From Bacteroidota bacterium (GTDB lineage: Bacteria > Bacteroidota > Bacteroidia > Chitinophagales > Saprospiraceae), in assembly GCA_030147525.1 (NCBI GenBank), contig JASBVF010000055.1, positions 1-64,000 of the forward strand: a stretch of DNA of 64,000 bases, given 5' to 3'. Below, piece by piece: positions 21,836 through 30,730 of the stretch (positions are counted from its first letter, which is position 1; each line of letters begins with the position of its first letter). A model generated the notes under the pieces. That model had not been told where the DNA came from, made no database searches, and saw nothing but the letters and a program-made list of their open reading frames with translations. Made by a program: the position numbers and the translations under genes.

Positions 21836-22885
21836 TTAATCCCGCATGTAAGGATAGTCTTCCTGTACGTAGTTGTCTTCGTACAGCGCAGCGCCATCCG
21901 GGAACGGTGATTCTTCGGCAAATTGTACTGCCTCTTCAATCTCCGCCTTTATTTTTTCCTTGATCGCTTCGATTTCCTCCTCTGTTGCCAGTTTGTTGTC
22001 AAGAATGGTTTGCTCCGTCATTTTGAGCGGATCAATATCCATGTAGGACTTCAACTCGTCACGGGTACGGTAAGTACCGGGGTCGGAAACAGAGTGGCCT
22101 TTGTAGCGATAGGTCTTGATTTCCAGAAAGTAAGGGCCTTTGCCGGCACGAATGTGCTCGACGGCTTTGGAAATTGCCTCGTGAACGGATTCCGGGCTCA
22201 TGCCGTCAACTGCTTCGCTTGGCATGTCGTAGGCAAAGCCCAGCTTATAAATGTCTTTGATGTTGCTGGTACGCTCAACGGAAGTTCCCATTGCGTAGTT
22301 GTTGTTTTCACAAATGTAAAGTACCGGCAACTTCCAGGTCATGGCCATATTGAATGCTTCGTGCAGGGCTCCCTGGCGGGCAGCACCATCACCGAACATC
22401 GTAACGCACAGATTATCAGTGCCTTTATACTTTTCTGCGAAGGCAATACCGGTGCCGATAGGGATTTGTGCACCTACGATACCGTTGCCACCGTAGTAGT
22501 TGTGTTCTTTTGAAAAGAAGTGCATGGAGCCGCCTTTTCCTTTGTTCACGCCGGTTGCTTTTGCGTATAATTCAGCCATACAAGCTTTGGTCGAAACGCC
22601 TCTTCCGATGGCGATTCCATGTTGGCGGTAAGCGGTTACGATGCCATCTTCCGGGCGGATTGCAGATTCAATACCGGCAGCAATTGCTTCCTGACCGATG
22701 TAAACGTGAAGAAAGCCCCTGATTTTTTGCTGACTGTAACCCATCAGTGCACGCTCCTCAAAACGGCGAATGCGAAGCATCAATTCATACCAGCTCAGGT
22801 ATTGCTCCTTGCTGTAGGTAGTTCCTTTTTTGCTTGACTTTTTTGCCGTAGATTTTTTTTCAGGCTTTGTTTTTTCAAGAACCAT
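21836..22885 (-). CDS. pdhA: Pyruvate dehydrogenase E1 component, alpha subunit
   Basis: A 349-aa thiamine-diphosphate-dependent E1 alpha subunit that decarboxylates pyruvate for acetyl-CoA formation. The TPP/Mg motif is GDG (165-167) to N179 (GDGAARQGALHEAFNM). Also typical are RRFEERALMGYSQQKIRGFLHVYIGQEA, TAYRQHG, GKGGSMHFF and, near the C-terminus, YRYKGHSVSDPGTYR. The N-terminus has an unusual Lys/Ser/Thr-rich 22-residue extension before the conserved core. The beta subunit and E2 are not adjacent, common in Bacteroidota. It has its own terminator. A 223-bp gap separates it from the fusion gene upstream. Confidence 0.93.
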   Translation of the reverse strand: MVLEKTKPEKKSTAKKSSKKGTTYSKEQYLSWYELMLRIRRFEERALMGYSQQKIRGFLHVYIGQEAIAAGIESAIRPEDGIVTAYRQHGIAIGRGVSTKACMAELYAKATGVNKGKGGSMHFFSKEHNYYGGNGIVGAQIPIGTGIAFAEKYKGTDNLCVTMFGDGAARQGALHEAFNMAMTWKLPVLYICENNNYAMGTSVERTSNIKDIYKLGFAYDMPSEAVDGMSPESVHEAISKAVEHIRAGKGPYFLEIKTYRYKGHSVSDPGTYRTRDELKSYMDIDPLKMTEQTILDNKLATEEEIEAIKEKIKAEIEEAVQFAEESPFPDGAALYEDNYVQEDYPYMRD

Positions 22886-23108: not shown

Positions 23109-25949
23109 TCATCGTCCGGACCGGTCAATAAAATTCGAGCCTGCCTGCTGTGTGCCGAACATCAGCACATCCTGAATATTAACGTGAGGAGGCCGGGTAG
23201 CGATAAAAAAGATCGTCTCCGCCACATCGCTCGATTTCAGCGGTTGAAAGTTTTCATAAACCTGAGCAGCACGGTCGGTGTCGCCATCGAAACGAACACT
23301 GGCAAATTCGGTCTCTTCGACATGTCCTGGTGCTACCTGACTGACCCGCACGTTGTGCTTGTACAAATCCAGCCGCATGGATTTGGTGAGGGCGTCCACG
23401 GCAAATTTGGTGGCGCAGTACACGTTCCCGCCAGGGTACACCTCTTTGCCTGCACCTGACGCAACATTGATGATATGTCCACTGCGCCGCTCGACCATCT
23501 GTGGTGAAACGGCACGGGTGATGTAGAGCAGACCTTTGATATTGGTGTCGATCATTGTGTCCCAATGCTCCGGGTCGCCCTCGTGGATGGGGGAGAGACC
23601 CCTTGAAAGACCGGCATTGTTGATCAAAATATCAATCTTGCGCCAGGCTTCAGGAAGGTCCTCCATGGCTACTTTTACGGCCTCCGCATCCCTTACGTCG
23701 AAGGTGAGGACCTGGATATTGTTGTTGTATTTTTCCTTGAAATCATTTTTCATGGCATCGAGCCGATCCTTCCTGCGACCGGTAATGATTACCTGGTAAC
23801 CGTTGGCTGCAAAAACCTCTGCCGTCGCTTTGCCGATGCCTGCCGTTGCTCCGGTAATCAGTACGATGGGCTTATCATTTACCTGGACGGGTTCGGGGGC
23901 AGGCGCTGTACTTACCGCTTCCATGGATTTTGGAGCAGGCGGGGCTTCAACCGGCTTCGTTGTTTCAACAAAATCCAGCGCATCCGTGATGGCAGCGGTG
24001 GCGCCAACAGCTGCCATGGTTTCTGTTATTTCGAGTTTATTCAGGACTGCAGGTTTAGTCTCAGACGGCGCTTCATTTTGCGGGTCGGGTGCTTCACCTG
24101 CTTCTTCCAGGTTGAAGGCTGGCATTTCCTGTTCGAAAGCTTCGACGCTTTCGGTGACAGTCGATTCTTTCTCCTCTTTTACTGATGGCTCCGGCGCTTC
24201 AGCAGCTGGTTTTTCAACATAAAAAGCGGCATCGTTTTGAGGCGTTTTTAACTCAGGGTTGATCGTTGTCGCCCTGACGTAGTAGTCATTGGCAACTTCC
24301 TTTTCACCCAGCCGGTAGTAAAGCAGGGCAAGGTCATAATTGGCAAAGGCATGTGTTGGGTCCTGCAACAAGGTTGATTTAAAATAATCGATGGCGCTCT
24401 CAGGGTCGCCGAGCCGCTCGTTGAGCAGAGTTCCGAGCAGGTAGTGTGCTTCGGCGTTTCTGGGGTTGTGGGCGATTGCTTTTTTGAAATAACCGGCAGC
24501 TTTAGCATCCTGCTCCGGAAAGTGCTGAATGGTAAGCAGGCCCAGTCTGTAAAATACCTCCGGGAAATCTGGTTGGAGGGAAGCTACTTTTTCGAAACAT
24601 TGCTTTGCGTCTGTTATTTCGCCTTGATTTTCAGCAACTTCCGCCAGCAGGAACCATGCATCCGGATGTTCGCTGTCACTTTCCAGGATGGTGTTCAGCT
24701 GCTTGCGGGCGGCTTTCCAGCGTTCTCCGTAGCGTGCGAGTGCATAAGCATAATAGTATCGCAGCGTATGGTCATTCGGGTTGAGCTTGACGGTTTTTTT
24801 CAGATAATCTAATCCTTCCTCCACGTTGCCCTCATCGAAAAGGTCGACGGCATATTCAAGAATTTCTTCCGGGGTGGCGTGTGTTTTTCCATCTGCATTG
24901 ATGACCAGGCCTTCTTCGTCGTCGGAGATCAGATCAAGAAGGACTTCATCCTCTTCGGGTTCATCCTTACTGTCTTCTGATGCTGTTTCTTCATCAAATA
25001 AAGAGTTCAGGTCCAGTTCATCAGCATTTTCGGGGTCATCACTGAGGAAGCGGTATTCTTCGCCATCCTCGTCGTCTTCTTCACCGAGGACTTCATTCAG
25101 AATCTCATTCACTTCGTCATCCTCATCATCCTCATCAGAGGCACTGTCTTTTCTGGCAGCTTCGTTGAGCATATCCATACCGGGAATTTCGGAAACATCA
25201 ACCGGCGGGTTTTCTTCCTCTTCGGATCCTTTGTTTTTAGAAAGCTCCTGGTTTTCAGCCATGAGTTCCTCCGACGAATCCTGAATAATTTCGGCCAGTG
25301 ATTTTTGCGAACGACCGCTGGCAGAAGAGGGATCGGCAGTGCTGGTAGTTGATTCGGTAGCATCGTCAGCGATGATGGCTTCGCCGTAAAATTTGCGCAA
25401 CACCTTAAATCCGTCAAATTTGAAGTCCTCCAGCGTGTACCAGTTCAGGTTGCGGAGGTACCGAAGGAATTCGCCTACTTCAGTTGAAATGGCTTTGGTC
25501 AGTTCAAGTTCTTTTTCCAGTTTTTCATCGTCTTCGTGGTGGCGTTTTTCCTTGCGAAGCTCAAGGTAATGGTCTTGCCAGTGATTCATGTACTGGATGA
25601 TGTTGCTCACCCGGTCGAAGGTGGTCGGAACATTTTCCCAGCCACCACCTGTCTTAGGCTGGCGGCCATCGGCCACCACCGGAACAAGTTTTCCTGAGGT
25701 GGCCCAATCTTTTAGTGCCTGCAGCGCTCCGTGCATGCAGCCTCTCGATTTCAGGAAGTTATCTGTCACCAACAAAATGATGGCACCATCGGAGCTTTCG
25801 GTTTCCTGACGCAGCGGTGTTTGGGAATATTCACTGATTTCTGTTGGTAAAACCGGAAAGCCTGCCTGTGTCAGGCCTGTTATGAGTTGTGTTGCAACTT
25901 CTTGGTTATCAGAACTATAGACAATGACGTTTTGCTTGGTGCGAGACAT
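23109..25949 (-). CDS. TIR-like / TPR / short-chain dehydrogenase fusion protein
   Basis: A 946-aa three-part protein with one uninterrupted frame. (1) Residues about 6-105 form a TIR-like domain: VIVYSSDNQEVATQLITGL as strand A/helix A, DGAIILLVTDNFLKSRGCMHGAL as strands C/D. The usual C-x-x-E of NADase TIRs reads CMHG, so the catalytic Glu is Gly74. (2) A helical stretch (110-195) and a very acidic Ser/Glu/Asp linker (196-350). (3) About six TPRs (361-570). (4) An Ala/Pro/Glu-rich linker (575-692). (5) A complete classical SDR domain (693-946): TGATAGIG (699-706), NNAG (777-780), N803, S831, Y844-x-x-x-K848, closest in style to YdfG-type dehydrogenases. It should oxidise or reduce an unknown alcohol or carbonyl with NAD(P) while docked through TIR/TPR contacts. 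No defence genes are nearby. Confidence 0.85.
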   Translation of the reverse strand: MSRTKQNVIVYSSDNQEVATQLITGLTQAGFPVLPTEISEYSQTPLRQETESSDGAIILLVTDNFLKSRGCMHGALQALKDWATSGKLVPVVADGRQPKTGGGWENVPTTFDRVSNIIQYMNHWQDHYLELRKEKRHHEDDEKLEKELELTKAISTEVGEFLRYLRNLNWYTLEDFKFDGFKVLRKFYGEAIIADDATESTTSTADPSSASGRSQKSLAEIIQDSSEELMAENQELSKNKGSEEEENPPVDVSEIPGMDMLNEAARKDSASDEDDEDDEVNEILNEVLGEEDDEDGEEYRFLSDDPENADELDLNSLFDEETASEDSKDEPEEDEVLLDLISDDEEGLVINADGKTHATPEEILEYAVDLFDEGNVEEGLDYLKKTVKLNPNDHTLRYYYAYALARYGERWKAARKQLNTILESDSEHPDAWFLLAEVAENQGEITDAKQCFEKVASLQPDFPEVFYRLGLLTIQHFPEQDAKAAGYFKKAIAHNPRNAEAHYLLGTLLNERLGDPESAIDYFKSTLLQDPTHAFANYDLALLYYRLGEKEVANDYYVRATTINPELKTPQNDAAFYVEKPAAEAPEPSVKEEKESTVTESVEAFEQEMPAFNLEEAGEAPDPQNEAPSETKPAVLNKLEITETMAAVGATAAITDALDFVETTKPVEAPPAPKSMEAVSTAPAPEPVQVNDKPIVLITGATAGIGKATAEVFAANGYQVIITGRRKDRLDAMKNDFKEKYNNNIQVLTFDVRDAEAVKVAMEDLPEAWRKIDILINNAGLSRGLSPIHEGDPEHWDTMIDTNIKGLLYITRAVSPQMVERRSGHIINVASGAGKEVYPGGNVYCATKFAVDALTKSMRLDLYKHNVRVSQVAPGHVEETEFASVRFDGDTDRAAQVYENFQPLKSSDVAETIFFIATRPPHVNIQDVLMFGTQQAGSNFIDRSGR

Positions 25950-26019: not shown

Positions 26020-27351
26020 CTACTCGTTTAATAGCGAAGTGACAAAAGTATCGAATTCTTTTGTGAATGCCACATACTCGCTGGTGGCAGGACCGTAAAA
26101 GCCCGTGTGAATTTTCCGAACCCGGTTGTTTTTATCCAAAAAAATCATGGTGGGGTAGGAGAGTACCCGGTTGAGCATTGGCAATGCTTTGGCGGCCTCT
26201 TCTTTTTTGTAGGATCCTGCATGCACGATTTCGTAGTTCATACCGAATCGCTGTTTGTAAGTTCGGATGGCGGCATTGGCTTTTTCAGGGTCGCTGTATT
26301 TTTCAAATGCGAGAGCGATGACGGCTATGTTTTCCGGATTTTTTTGATTCAAATAATCGATTAAAAATTCGGTTTCATCCCGGCAGTTCGGGCACCATGT
26401 ACCCATGATCTGGACGACTTTTACTTTGCCCTCGTATTCAGGGTTTTCAGGTGAAATGACCTTTCCGTCAGGGTTTTCAAAAGAAAAGGTCAGCTTGTCG
26501 TAGCCGGGAAGGAGGTAAGTCAGCGAGTCTGGGTTGGCGAGTTTGAAGCTATCATCCCGGTGACCTTCCCAGGTGGTCTGGTAGTGTTTTCCGGAGAAGA
26601 AAGCACCGGTCAGCGTGCTGTCAGGCAGTATTTTACCCTTGAACAAAAAGGCATGCGATCCGTCAAAGACCGAGAGGTAAAACTTGTCTTCCTGAACGGT
26701 GCCCTCGAGGAAGCGGTAATCGCCGGTTTCAGTCTGGAAAGTGCCGGTGAGGCGGTTGCCTTCCTGTTTGAATTCGGCGATTGCAGGATAGGGTTCCTCT
26801 TCGTCCAGTCCAAAGGTGCAGGCCCATTTGCCGCTAAGGTCGAGCGCCGGTTCTTTGCGCAACGGTGTGAAGCGGTAATCCTTCCCTTGCGTGGCGGTGA
26901 AGGGGATGGCGTAGTTCTCCCGTGTAGTCACGACCCAGGAGCCTTCGATGATATTTCCGGCGAAGGAGCCGGTGATGTAGGAATCGTAAATCGGAAAATC
27001 GATACGGATGGTATCCCTTGCCCGGTTCTTGCTGCGGCCAAACTGTATGTCGCCGGCCGGCACAACGATGCGCTCTTCGCCGTTGATAATCTCGATGTGA
27101 AATGTGGAGTCGTTGTCGTAAATGACTTCGAAATTAAAAGGCAACTCGTCCTCGTTAACATCAGCGAATTTCATATCCACTTTATCGGGGAGGGGTTGCC
27201 CCTTCGGATTAGGTGTGATGAAATCAGGTTCAAGTTTCAGCACAGCTCGCCAGGGGCCGGGAGGCAGCGCTGAGTAGGTGTTGTCAGTGACGATGCAGCC
27301 GCTGGATGTGATTATTGCAATCAAAAAAATAAGAATGGAAAGCTTGTTCAT
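26020..27351 (-). CDS. TlpA-like thioredoxin-domain lipoprotein
   Basis: The start was chosen at 27351: MNKLSILIFLIAIITSSGC is a lipoprotein signal with C19 lipidated. The 443-aa product has a beta-rich N-terminal half (about 25-290; PPGPWRAVLKLEP, FAGNIIEGSW, LTGTFQTETGDYRFLEGTV) typical of Bacteroidota redoxin lipoproteins. The C-terminal thioredoxin fold follows (about 300-440) with the active-site GTWCPNCRDE and the cis-Pro segment RVLSYPTMIFLD. It is likely a periplasm-facing disulfide reductase. It is leftward and single; a weak hairpin lies upstream. Confidence 0.85.
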   Translation of the reverse strand: MNKLSILIFLIAIITSSGCIVTDNTYSALPPGPWRAVLKLEPDFITPNPKGQPLPDKVDMKFADVNEDELPFNFEVIYDNDSTFHIEIINGEERIVVPAGDIQFGRSKNRARDTIRIDFPIYDSYITGSFAGNIIEGSWVVTTRENYAIPFTATQGKDYRFTPLRKEPALDLSGKWACTFGLDEEEPYPAIAEFKQEGNRLTGTFQTETGDYRFLEGTVQEDKFYLSVFDGSHAFLFKGKILPDSTLTGAFFSGKHYQTTWEGHRDDSFKLANPDSLTYLLPGYDKLTFSFENPDGKVISPENPEYEGKVKVVQIMGTWCPNCRDETEFLIDYLNQKNPENIAVIALAFEKYSDPEKANAAIRTYKQRFGMNYEIVHAGSYKKEEAAKALPMLNRVLSYPTMIFLDKNNRVRKIHTGFYGPATSEYVAFTKEFDTFVTSLLNE

Positions 27352-27412
27352 TGTGTCAGAATTGAAAACTTGGTCAATGATCACCATGATTTTGAAAACC
27401 GCTGATGATTTT

Positions 27413-27539: not shown

Positions 27540-28079
27540 CTAAGATTTTTCACCTACGAAGTTATCCTCTTTGTTTTTAAATAGAACATTGAAAGTTGTC
27601 AAGCTGCCGTAGATGCGTGTGATGTACTGCTGGAGGTCTACTTTTTCGTCATCGCTGAGTTTGCTGCTGTTGATGCGCTGCTCCATCACCCGAAGGCGGT
27701 CACGGACCATCACGATTTTATGAAAAAACGTTTCGATAGGAATTTCCTTAGGCTTTAGGCTGTCGTCTTCCGGTTTCAGGACCAGCGTTCCGCCTTTCCA
27801 GCGGTCGCCCAGGTCGACGACCTGGCTGATGTCGGACCAATGGCGCAGGATTTTCATCAACGACCGTTCAGCTTCTGTGAAGGTGATGCTTTCCTCAGCG
27901 GGTATTGCCTCCACGATTTGCCATTTGTCGTATTCTTTCCCGACCAACTTTATGCCGTATAGCGTAAAACAACATTCGTAAGCCGCCATGTGCAGCCGGA
28001 TGACCACCCCGTCGCCGTAGGCCGGATGTTTTACCCTCGAACCGATGCCGAGGAGTCCCGATTTTTGAGAATCACTCAT
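27540..28079 (-). CDS. Conserved hypothetical protein with UvrD-tail-like N-terminus
   Basis: The start is set at 28079 (MSDSQKSGLLGIGSRVKHP); an in-frame ATG at 28139 adds 20 residues of poor character. The 179-aa protein opens with GIGSRVKHPAYGDGVVIRL. This resembles the small tudor-like module at the C-terminus of UvrD/PcrA helicases and the N-terminus of CarD-like proteins, which contact RNA polymerase. The rest (about 70-175) is helical, with MVRDRLRVMEQRINSSKLSDDEK. No signal peptide. A nucleic-acid or polymerase-related role is only suggested by the first 60 residues. Confidence 0.6.
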   Translation of the reverse strand: MSDSQKSGLLGIGSRVKHPAYGDGVVIRLHMAAYECCFTLYGIKLVGKEYDKWQIVEAIPAEESITFTEAERSLMKILRHWSDISQVVDLGDRWKGGTLVLKPEDDSLKPKEIPIETFFHKIVMVRDRLRVMEQRINSSKLSDDEKVDLQQYITRIYGSLTTFNVLFKNKEDNFVGEKS

Positions 28080-28223
28080 GTTCAAATTCTTTTTTAATGT
28101 GCAATTATCGTTTGAATCAGATGGAATGACAATTTTCAATCAAATAAAAATGTCCGGCACCTGTTTACGGAGTTTTTACGTGGATTGTTCCAATGAAATC
28201 AACCGTGTTCTTGGCTGAAAATT

Positions 28224-29533: not shown

Positions 29534-30730
29534 ATGGATTCACCCAGGTATTCGGCGCTCGTGCATGTGCCGGAAATTTCAACCTTCAATATTTTAGGTC
29601 TTACACAGTTGGAGCGCACACTCATTGCACTTGGAAAAGCAGGCGTGGAGGCCTGCTTTATCGCTGCTGCTGATGTCACAAAAGTGAAGATCGCAATGAG
29701 CGAGATCAGGGAAATTCCAGTCAGGATTTTCCCGGCCGGTCGAATTGCGGAAGCTCAGCAACTTGCTTCGGAAGTAGGTTTTACCGGCGTTTTCCTGGTG
29801 CCAAAACCGTTGGTGGTGGACCTGTCCATTTTAGAAGATTTAAAAAAACAACTTCCGTCGTCGGGTGCAGTATTACCGGCAGCCGGAGGTATTGCGCTGG
29901 CGACTACGGGTGTGGTAAAACAGCTTCCTGAATCAGTTTTATCTTCGGAAAAACTGACCGACAGCATTCCCCAACCCGTGATCCTGGATACCGGCAACCG
30001 TACCTGCCAGTCAGTCGGCTCCAAAGCGGAGCTGAAGCAGGTAAAAAAACGGATGATCAAAAACCTGACGAAGCCGACGGACGGCATCGTTTCACGAAAT
30101 ATCAATCGCCGGGTGTCAACCAGCATCAGCCGCTGGGTGACTTATCTGCCGGTTTCGCCCAATCAAATCACGCTGGTGACGGGCCTGATCGCTTTCATTC
30201 CCTGTTATTTTATGTACCAGGGCGGCTACAAAAACTGGCTCATCGGGGCAGCAACTTACCAGCTGGCTTCCATCCTCGACGGCGTTGACGGGGAAATCGC
30301 ACGCCTGAAAATGAAAAGCTCAAAATTCGGGCAGTGGCTCGATACGATGCTGGATTTTGTGTCGATGATTGCGGTGTTGCTGTGCCTGGTAGCGGGCGTG
30401 CACCGGGTAGATCAGCCGGAATACATCCGCTGGGCAGGCAAACTGGCTATCATTTTTGCGGTGCTGTGTTTTCTGGGGTTGCTGTTGTACGTGATTCGTT
30501 TCAAAAAAGAAGGTTCCTTCAGCATTCAGTATTCGTTCCTAGACAGTGACAGCAAATGGGCAAAGGTGATCAAATCACTGGACTTTCTCGGCAAGCGTGA
30601 TTTTTACATTTTCTTTTTCCTGATTCTGGCCCTGTTTGGGCTGATGCCCTGGGCGCTGGTGTACGTTGGGACAATCACTGTGATGGTGTTTGTGTTCGTC
30701 GTGCAGGCGCATATCCAAACGAAGGCCTGA
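29534..30730 (+). CDS. CDP-alcohol phosphatidyltransferase with degenerate nucleotidyltransferase-like N-terminus
   Basis: A 398-aa protein. The C-terminal half (about 176-398) is an integral-membrane CDP-alcohol phosphotransferase with the full metal/CDP motif D249-G-V-D252-G ... A256-R257 ... G266 ... D270 ... D274, plus several hydrophobic helices. The preceding NLTKPTDGIVSRNINRRVS and VSPNQITLVTGL resemble the CDP-inositol transferase (DIPP synthase) type. The N-terminal about 170 residues look like a sugar/polyol-phosphate nucleotidyltransferase (GLTQLERTLIALGKAGVEACFI) but lack the G-x-G-T-R loop and an obvious metal Asp pair. The module may be inactive or have changed role. The substrate alcohol (inositol phosphate is one candidate) is not defined by sequence. 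Confidence 0.82.
   Translation: MDSPRYSALVHVPEISTFNILGLTQLERTLIALGKAGVEACFIAAADVTKVKIAMSEIREIPVRIFPAGRIAEAQQLASEVGFTGVFLVPKPLVVDLSILEDLKKQLPSSGAVLPAAGGIALATTGVVKQLPESVLSSEKLTDSIPQPVILDTGNRTCQSVGSKAELKQVKKRMIKNLTKPTDGIVSRNINRRVSTSISRWVTYLPVSPNQITLVTGLIAFIPCYFMYQGGYKNWLIGAATYQLASILDGVDGEIARLKMKSSKFGQWLDTMLDFVSMIAVLLCLVAGVHRVDQPEYIRWAGKLAIIFAVLCFLGLLLYVIRFKKEGSFSIQYSFLDSDSKWAKVIKSLDFLGKRDFYIFFFLILALFGLMPWALVYVGTITVMVFVFVVQAHIQTKA

Follow-up and report, generated by a model that had tools for sequence, protein, structure and literature searches.

A TIR-TPR-SDR fusion protein of Saprospiraceae whose TIR domain lacks the residues of the NADase signature

Two roles are known for Toll/interleukin-1 receptor (TIR) domains, that of an immune scaffold and that of an enzyme cleaving nicotinamide adenine dinucleotide (NAD); both TIR domains and tetratricopeptide repeats (TPRs) are common in bacterial conflict systems. 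Among the short-chain dehydrogenases/reductases (SDRs), YdfG and the NADP-dependent serine (3-hydroxy acid) dehydrogenases of E. coli and yeast are single-domain enzymes. We describe a gene that joins all three parts in one reading frame, found in a 64,000-nucleotide stretch of DNA (the window; positions 1 to 64,000 of contig JASBVF010000055.1, assembly GCA_030147525.1) from a Bacteroidota bacterium of the environmental family Saprospiraceae. Among the open-access papers searched, none was recognisable as a description of a TIR-TPR-SDR protein. One survey of TIR domains (PMC7075850) does not use the words Bacteroidetes, TPR or dehydrogenase in its main text, in the portion consulted. Each part is known by itself; the papers searched showed neither the combination nor its spread through a family, nor the loss of the NADase signature.

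The initial annotation described one intact 946-codon frame with a TIR-like N terminus, an acidic linker, about six TPRs and a full SDR carrying S831, Y844 and K848, and this description held throughout. The frame lies on the minus strand and runs without interruption through 946 codons (Table 1). Pfam TIR_2 matched residues 9-98 with 25.0 bits when the whole protein was searched (cut-off 28), and with 28.7 bits, just over the cut-off, when residues 1-190 were searched alone. TIR_2 matches at E<=1 were obtained for 28 of 32 aligned family members. A profile (A1) built from these 32 of 40 proteins had the MyD88 TIR as its best match in the PDB (E=1.2e-4).

Structure prediction of the TIR region gave a TIR fold as well. 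The AlphaFold2 (AF2) model of residues 1-200 (66 sequences) had a mean predicted local distance difference test score (pLDDT) of 92.6, and the six best Foldseek matches in the PDB were all TIR domains (best E=1.4e-4). Only two matches had E<=0.001, both to the plant L6 TIR; ranks 3-6 were TcpB (twice), PdTIR and RUN1, and AbTir was also among the matches. The template modelling scores (TM-scores) of these six were modest, 0.34-0.51 by query and 0.49-0.59 by target, because the model has a long helical extension past the TIR core. Rank 7 was a flavodoxin-like protein (E=4.8e-3), and from there WrbA and flavodoxin folds followed close behind the TIRs; another flavodoxin-like fold in place of a TIR is ruled out by Pfam, profile and Foldseek together. 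Six residues (N64, Y120, N122, W124, Q125 and L162) were invariant across 66 members. Scaffold TIRs such as MyD88, the best solved-structure match of the profile, resemble the window TIR also in the role proposed for it, assembly and not catalysis. The window TIR differs from them in being bacterial and fused to a metabolic enzyme, and its likeness to them is one of sequence profile.

Pfam TPR families matched within residues ~374-567, several above cut-off, and the helices are paired in 34-residue repeats; TPR-S (PF20308) scored 25.8 bits in the window protein, under its cut-off of 27.6. An AF2 model of residues 347-946, made from 53 sequences (alignment A3, comprising the window protein and those of 52 contigs out of the 62 listed), had a pLDDT of 84.7. 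It shows twelve successive helices (six TPRs) and a capping helix, then ~100 disordered residues, then the SDR. Because its predicted template modelling score (pTM) is 0.49, the model leaves the placement of the TPR and SDR parts relative to each other free. Within the second linker, pLDDT fell below 50 at model residues 243-320, 324-326 and 328-343. The first linker was net negative in all 62 intact fusions with a TPR match, with a median length of 196.5 residues and a median charge of -44.5; its sequence drifts and its acidity persists.

Pfam adh_short matched residues 695-884 with 197.8 bits. The SDR part is modelled with a Rossmann fold, and its nearest solved structures were NADP-dependent serine dehydrogenases, namely yeast YMR226C (3rku; 40% identity, 1.1 Å, TM-score 0.90 by target) and the E. 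coli enzyme (3asu and 3asv; for 3asv, an NADP complex, 46% identity, 1.3 Å, TM-score 0.93 by target). With an NCBIfam YdfG score of 266.8 against a cut-off of 411, the window SDR classes by sequence as a relative of YdfG and not as its equivalog. It has the same catalytic residues as these enzymes and the TGRR motif after strand 2, whereas in the fusion 694 residues of TIR, linkers and TPRs stand in front of it. The catalytic residues were kept in nearly all of 105 fused rows (82 distinct): S831 in 105, Y844 in 102 and K848 in 104. All three were kept in 22/22 rows classed as stand-alone, two of which (G035 and L111) are broken fusions. Of the 38 fused genomes, 21 were searched for close copies, and 18 of these held a single match at E<=1e-40, the fused SDR itself; in genome G019 the second match carries two internal stops. 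The SDR half probably catalyses an NADP-dependent oxidation or reduction, a class assigned by homology, and its substrate may be a small 3-hydroxy acid or aldehyde.

The spread of the fusion was followed in two overlapping sets, the counts of which are not independent. The first comprised 61 genomes, that of the window and its 60 nearest relatives within the genus and family. The second comprised 80 contigs kept of 137 confirmed, mostly labelled Saprospiraceae or Lewinella-type genera and otherwise Bacteroidetes, Chitinophagales, Saprospirales or Bacteroidia, for which membership of the Saprospiraceae is probable. TIR and SDR were in one frame in 38 of the 61 Saprospiraceae genomes, representing 26 genera; the pieces were split at contig ends in three more (G021, G023, G035), and three (G008, G034, G051) had neither a close SDR nor a TIR-profile match. 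One frame was likewise found in 68 of the 80 contigs, 63 of these closed at both ends. The remaining 12 comprised ten cut by a contig end, one (L111) split into two adjoining frames and one (L121) without the SDR. The cultured isolate Flavilitoribacter nigricans DSM 23189 (L154) also carries the fusion; its TIR lies over E 0.001 in Pfam, yet it is a 38% match to the window TIR. An assembly artefact or accidental joining of genes, which the initial annotation had named as one finding that would undo it, is ruled out by the one-frame contigs and the cultured isolate, and TIR-TPR and SDR are not separate genes in the 38 fused genomes.

Strong TIR-profile matches occurred once per genome and with the SDR, save in contig-cut copies, the split L111 and L121. 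In 39 genomes from other families of the order there was no strong TIR-profile match, with weaker ones in other proteins of three genomes (G062, G071, G099), and 23 of 23 SDR regions examined there were of stand-alone size. In a class-wide draw of 395 genomes, seven matched the TIR profile at E<=1e-8, and the three with strong matches were Saprospiraceae. The TPRs were lost in genome G018, which keeps TIR and SDR. Family genomes with the fusion were larger (median 5.8 megabases, Mb; 40 values, the 38 plus G021 and G035) than those without (3.9 Mb, 17 genomes; Mann-Whitney p=1e-4, kinship ignored).

The best TIR-profile match outside the fusion among 100 genomes was a free-standing protein from another family of the order (L191:2148-3503, G062), in which a TIR is followed by TPRs as in the arm. 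Unlike the fusion, it keeps S10 and E74 (an intact C-M-Y-E), has a short linker and has no SDR. It is a possible model of the arm's ancestor.

The glutamate of the catalytic C-x-x-E motif had been reported as Gly74 in the window protein, and it is. Residues were counted in the window and all 80 contigs, except that L097 is cut before residue 10, which leaves 80 proteins there. The catalytic-Glu column of these 81 members held G 31, Q 14, N 10, E 9, R 6, D 6, K 3 and H 2. In the 66-row alignment (A2, the window and 65 of the 80 contigs) this column ranked only 103rd of 179 in conservation, adjoining the nearly invariant C71 and M72; the same alignment gave Glu in 7/66 and Ser at residue 10 in 2/66. 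Mutation of the strand-A serine inhibited NADase activity in both AbTir (S140) and TcpC (S176), according to the sections consulted of PMC11374754. Judging from the strand-A motif, residue 10 is probably its equivalent here; it is Ala or Val in 72/80 members (Val in the window) and Ser in 2/80. Ser10 and Glu74 occurred together in 0/80. In 38 rows taken from the genome set, many of them the same assemblies as the contigs, Glu74 was seen a single time (G046) and Ser10 never.

Of ten TIR proteins from outside the fusion, taken as non-fusion TIR-profile matches from the 100-genome search and the class-wide draw, eight had both the Ser10-type serine and the glutamate; the exceptions (L195, L196) had neither residue and are weak matches of another type. 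In a tree of 66 fusion TIRs and four outside TIRs, the Glu label required three changes, and six of the seven Glu members fell in one clade; two further Glu-bearing members (L113, L123) were not in this tree, and its root is unsure owing to long branches. The earlier conclusion that NAD cleavage looks lost therefore stands for the signature residues, with the glutamate missing in 72 of 81 members, and needs refining for the nine that keep it. Those nine also lack Ser10, so they are unlikely to be ordinary NADases. The fold is common to the fusion and to NADase TIRs (SARM1, AbTir, TcpC, ThsB), whereas the fusion is without the catalytic Glu in 72/81 members and without the strand-A Ser in 78/80. 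Loss of the NADase residues across the fusion is well supported.

Selection was estimated in two genome pairs as the ratio of nonsynonymous to synonymous substitution rates (dN/dS). For G001/G013 it was 0.057 in the TIR, 0.052 in the TPRs and 0.036 in the SDR, and 0.273 and 0.236 in the two linkers. For the more distant G005/G003 the folded parts gave 0.073, 0.075 and 0.052 and the second linker 0.573 (30 codons); dS exceeded 1 in the folded parts of this pair and was saturated for its first linker. TIR, TPR and SDR are under purifying selection in both pairs; in G001/G013 it is strong on these three parts and weaker on the linkers.

The gene row around the SDR is a family trait. In 84 of 102 fused loci (duplicate copies of one assembly both counted), a gene for a putative thioredoxin-like lipoprotein precedes the fusion in the same orientation, at a distance of one or two frames; 11 of the 18 loci without it end at a contig edge. 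The same gene was upstream in 14 of 16 resolved stand-alone SDR loci of the family (G037 is unresolved), at a gap of -20 to 65 bases from the SDR, and beside the SDR of other families in 0/23 loci. Since the row is the same whether the SDR is fused or not, the arm was gained, or lost, in situ. In a tree of 79 SDR rows, fused and stand-alone rows of the family were intermixed, and other families were set apart with 98% support in the Shimodaira-Hasegawa-like approximate likelihood ratio test (SH-aLRT). This tree required seven changes between fused and stand-alone (G035 being labelled stand-alone though it is a contig-broken fusion); 35 of its 76 inner branches are open, and G058 and G049 are long. 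The history may have been a single gain with several losses or several gains, and change counts cannot tell gain from loss.

Taking these results together, we lean towards a metabolic reductase whose TIR-TPR arm does not catalyse but serves in assembly or recruitment, and hold this with moderate confidence. The fusion architecture is well supported; a scaffolding role is what we infer for the arm. The SDR half would form a tetramer, as its homologues do, and each particle would then carry four TIR-TPR arms, in which the long acidic linker would be a flexible tether. TIR-TIR contacts would cluster the particles, as in scaffold TIRs. Self-association is described as a general property of TIRs in the part of PMC8635717 consulted. 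The TPRs may bind a client or a membrane-side partner, and the reductase would be held or concentrated where its substrate arises, with NADP presumably used by the fusion protein itself. More tentatively, and possible rather than probable, a TIR-TPR module of the conflict-system type may have had its NADase abolished and become the assembly arm of the cell's only YdfG-type NADP dehydrogenase.

Several observations weigh against this reading. Assembly and any partner are themselves matters that we infer. The arm is dispensable: the SDR occurs without it in 17 of the 61 family genomes, and stand-alone SDRs stand in the same gene row as the fused ones. Three family genomes of the class-wide draw (G299, G418, G439) gave no TIR-profile match. 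In one contig (L121:10004-12526) the gene that follows the redoxin lipoprotein at the usual locus is an intact TIR-TPR gene, and the SDR is missing there; the C terminus of its product is different (~100 residues), and the closest SDR at another site of this genome has 38% identity. The arm may therefore act by itself. The enzyme, too, can degrade while the fusion persists: in G059 (L051:4005-6953) the tyrosine of the fused SDR is Phe and a second, stand-alone SDR of 258 residues (49% identity) is present, and in G058 (L085:10356-12797) the fusion is kept though the Tyr-Lys stretch is gone, with no SDR match at E<=1e-40 elsewhere in the genome. As for partners, eight of 30 fused genomes searched had no match to TIR_2 (PF13676) at E<=0.001, and the protein thus seems able to do without a second TIR protein of canonical type; the search missed the fusion's own TIR in those eight as well, and a diverged TIR partner could escape it. 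TIR_2 matches are present in the other 22, with a maximum of 16 per genome. The fusion is less exotic than a new system would be, since some members of the family do without the arm and the role proposed for it is putative.

The principal rival is a sensor of the NAD(P) state, in which the TIR would bind NAD(P) or a nucleotide of the ADP-ribose type without cutting it and tune the SDR to the pyridine nucleotide state. We regard it as improbable, though it accounts for a TIR with NADase-type relatives being coupled to an NADP-type enzyme, and for a TIR under purifying selection with six invariant residues. However, the residues tied to NAD cleavage are lost, and of the six invariant residues all but one are in helices past the core, away from known active-site positions. 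Two long, mostly disordered or acidic linkers also part the TIR from the SDR, so direct allostery would be hard, though still conceivable.

A conflict or defence protein, with a TIR-TPR half that senses infection or stress and an SDR effector that disturbs redox, seems to us unlikely. Its appeal lies in the established association of TIR and TPR with conflict systems, in the sub-threshold TPR-S match (25.8 bits), in outside TIR relatives that include a Schlafen-TIR and, by eye, a TIR-dynamin protein, and in weak matches of the ThsB model to the TIR half alone in 4/32 relatives (best E=3e-4; none for the window TIR in PADLOC). The surroundings speak against it. The initial annotation had placed the gene outside any defence island, and among ten window proteins (the fusion and the nine around it) no defence genes were recognised; PADLOC gave no convincing match there, only TPR-stretch and generic ATPase matches, and no ThsA model, the partner expected in Thoeris. 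A defence-island setting is thus unsupported by the PADLOC scans of the TIRs and of the ten proteins. The conserved gene row, the SDR as sole close copy in 18 of the 21 fused genomes searched and the same SDR occurring armless in related genomes argue in the same direction.

That the TIR is still enzymatic, at least in part of the family and by a route without the usual residues, we consider more doubtful again. Glu is at the site in 9/81 members, mostly in one clade of the tree (six of seven), and the WxxxE tryptophan was not required in TcpC, according to the part of PMC11374754 consulted. Against this, the strand-A Ser is absent from all nine Glu members, none of which is aromatic at the position of that tryptophan, and seven different residues replace Glu in the other 72. 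A neutral fusion, in which a TIR-TPR gene joined the SDR by chance and its front half has no function, fits the repeated absence or degeneration of that half (17 stand-alone SDRs, G018 without TPRs) but is already disfavoured and very improbable, given a dN/dS of ~0.05 in TIR and TPR against 0.24-0.27 in the linkers of one pair, 0.07 in the second pair, and conservation across 26 genera.

Table 1. Features of the fusion gene and its neighbours, in window coordinates.
Feature	Position	Strand	Basis or remark
TIR-TPR-SDR fusion gene	23109..25949	-	946 codons and stop; intact homologues
TIR domain and C-terminal helical extension, residues 1-190	25380..25949	-	Pfam TIR_2, AF2, Foldseek, profile
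Residue 10 (Val), presumed strand-A serine position	25920..25922	-	equivalence suggested by the strand-A motif
C71-M-H-G74, with Gly where C-x-x-E has its catalytic glutamate	25728..25739	-	residue counts in relatives
Acidic linker, residues 191-359	24873..25379	-	net charge -54 over residues 191-366
Six TPRs and capping helix, residues 360-575 (TPRs 360-563)	24225..24872	-	AF2 helices, Pfam TPR families
Second linker, residues 576-694, mostly predicted disordered	23868..24224	-	AF2 pLDDT <50
YdfG-type classical SDR, residues 695-946	23112..23867	-	Pfam, NCBIfam, structure matches
SDR active-site stretch, S831 ... Y844-x-x-x-K848	23406..23459	-	conservation in fused rows
Redoxin/AhpC-TSA thioredoxin-like putative lipoprotein	26020..27387	-	conserved neighbour upstream of the SDR, fused or not
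199-residue protein, no Pfam match	27540..28139	-	often next in the gene row; 62-80% identity across Saprospiraceae loci
pdhA (pyruvate dehydrogenase E1 alpha)	21836..22885	-	downstream neighbour; TIGR03182, 437 bits, above cut-off

The gene had been placed between pdhA and a redox lipoprotein, and both neighbours were found again. pdhA was seen next to the fusion in loci of the window's genus and in none outside it. The N terminus of the redoxin protein has, by eye, a lipoprotein signal. This protein is a first candidate for a partner of the TPRs, although it looks exported and no signal sequence was seen by eye in the fusion protein. Further along the window, on the plus strand, positions 29534-30730 encode a CDP-alcohol phosphotransferase. 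Its best NCBIfam match, NF041135 (a bifunctional inositol-phosphate enzyme of Thermococcales), scored 111 bits, far under the cut-off of 580. The gene adjoins a GT4 glycosyltransferase and a type I phosphodiesterase, possibly a phospholipid or inositol-lipid cluster.

Two other kinds of TIR protein were seen. Besides the fusion, the genome of the window holds a single TIR_2 match at E<=0.01 (L220:1381-3258, contig C9), a protein with repeats that look pentatricopeptide-like by eye and, after them, a TIR at the C terminus. Two proteins from other families of the class (L233, L234) join a TIR with an intact C-M-x-E to a region that looks, by eye, like a dynamin-type GTPase.

The family offers a natural series for study, with relatives without the arm, without the TPRs, with the Glu kept and with a dead SDR. 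If the more tentative reading is true, this would be a TIR scaffold serving metabolism and not immunity or cell death, and there may be TIR-driven enzyme clusters in bacteria. A conserved TIR fold kept under strong selection without NADase residues, and fused to a household NADP-type enzyme, would show that scaffold-type TIRs have arisen in bacteria outside defence. The fusion suggests that an immune part has been reused in the Saprospiraceae to organise a metabolic enzyme.

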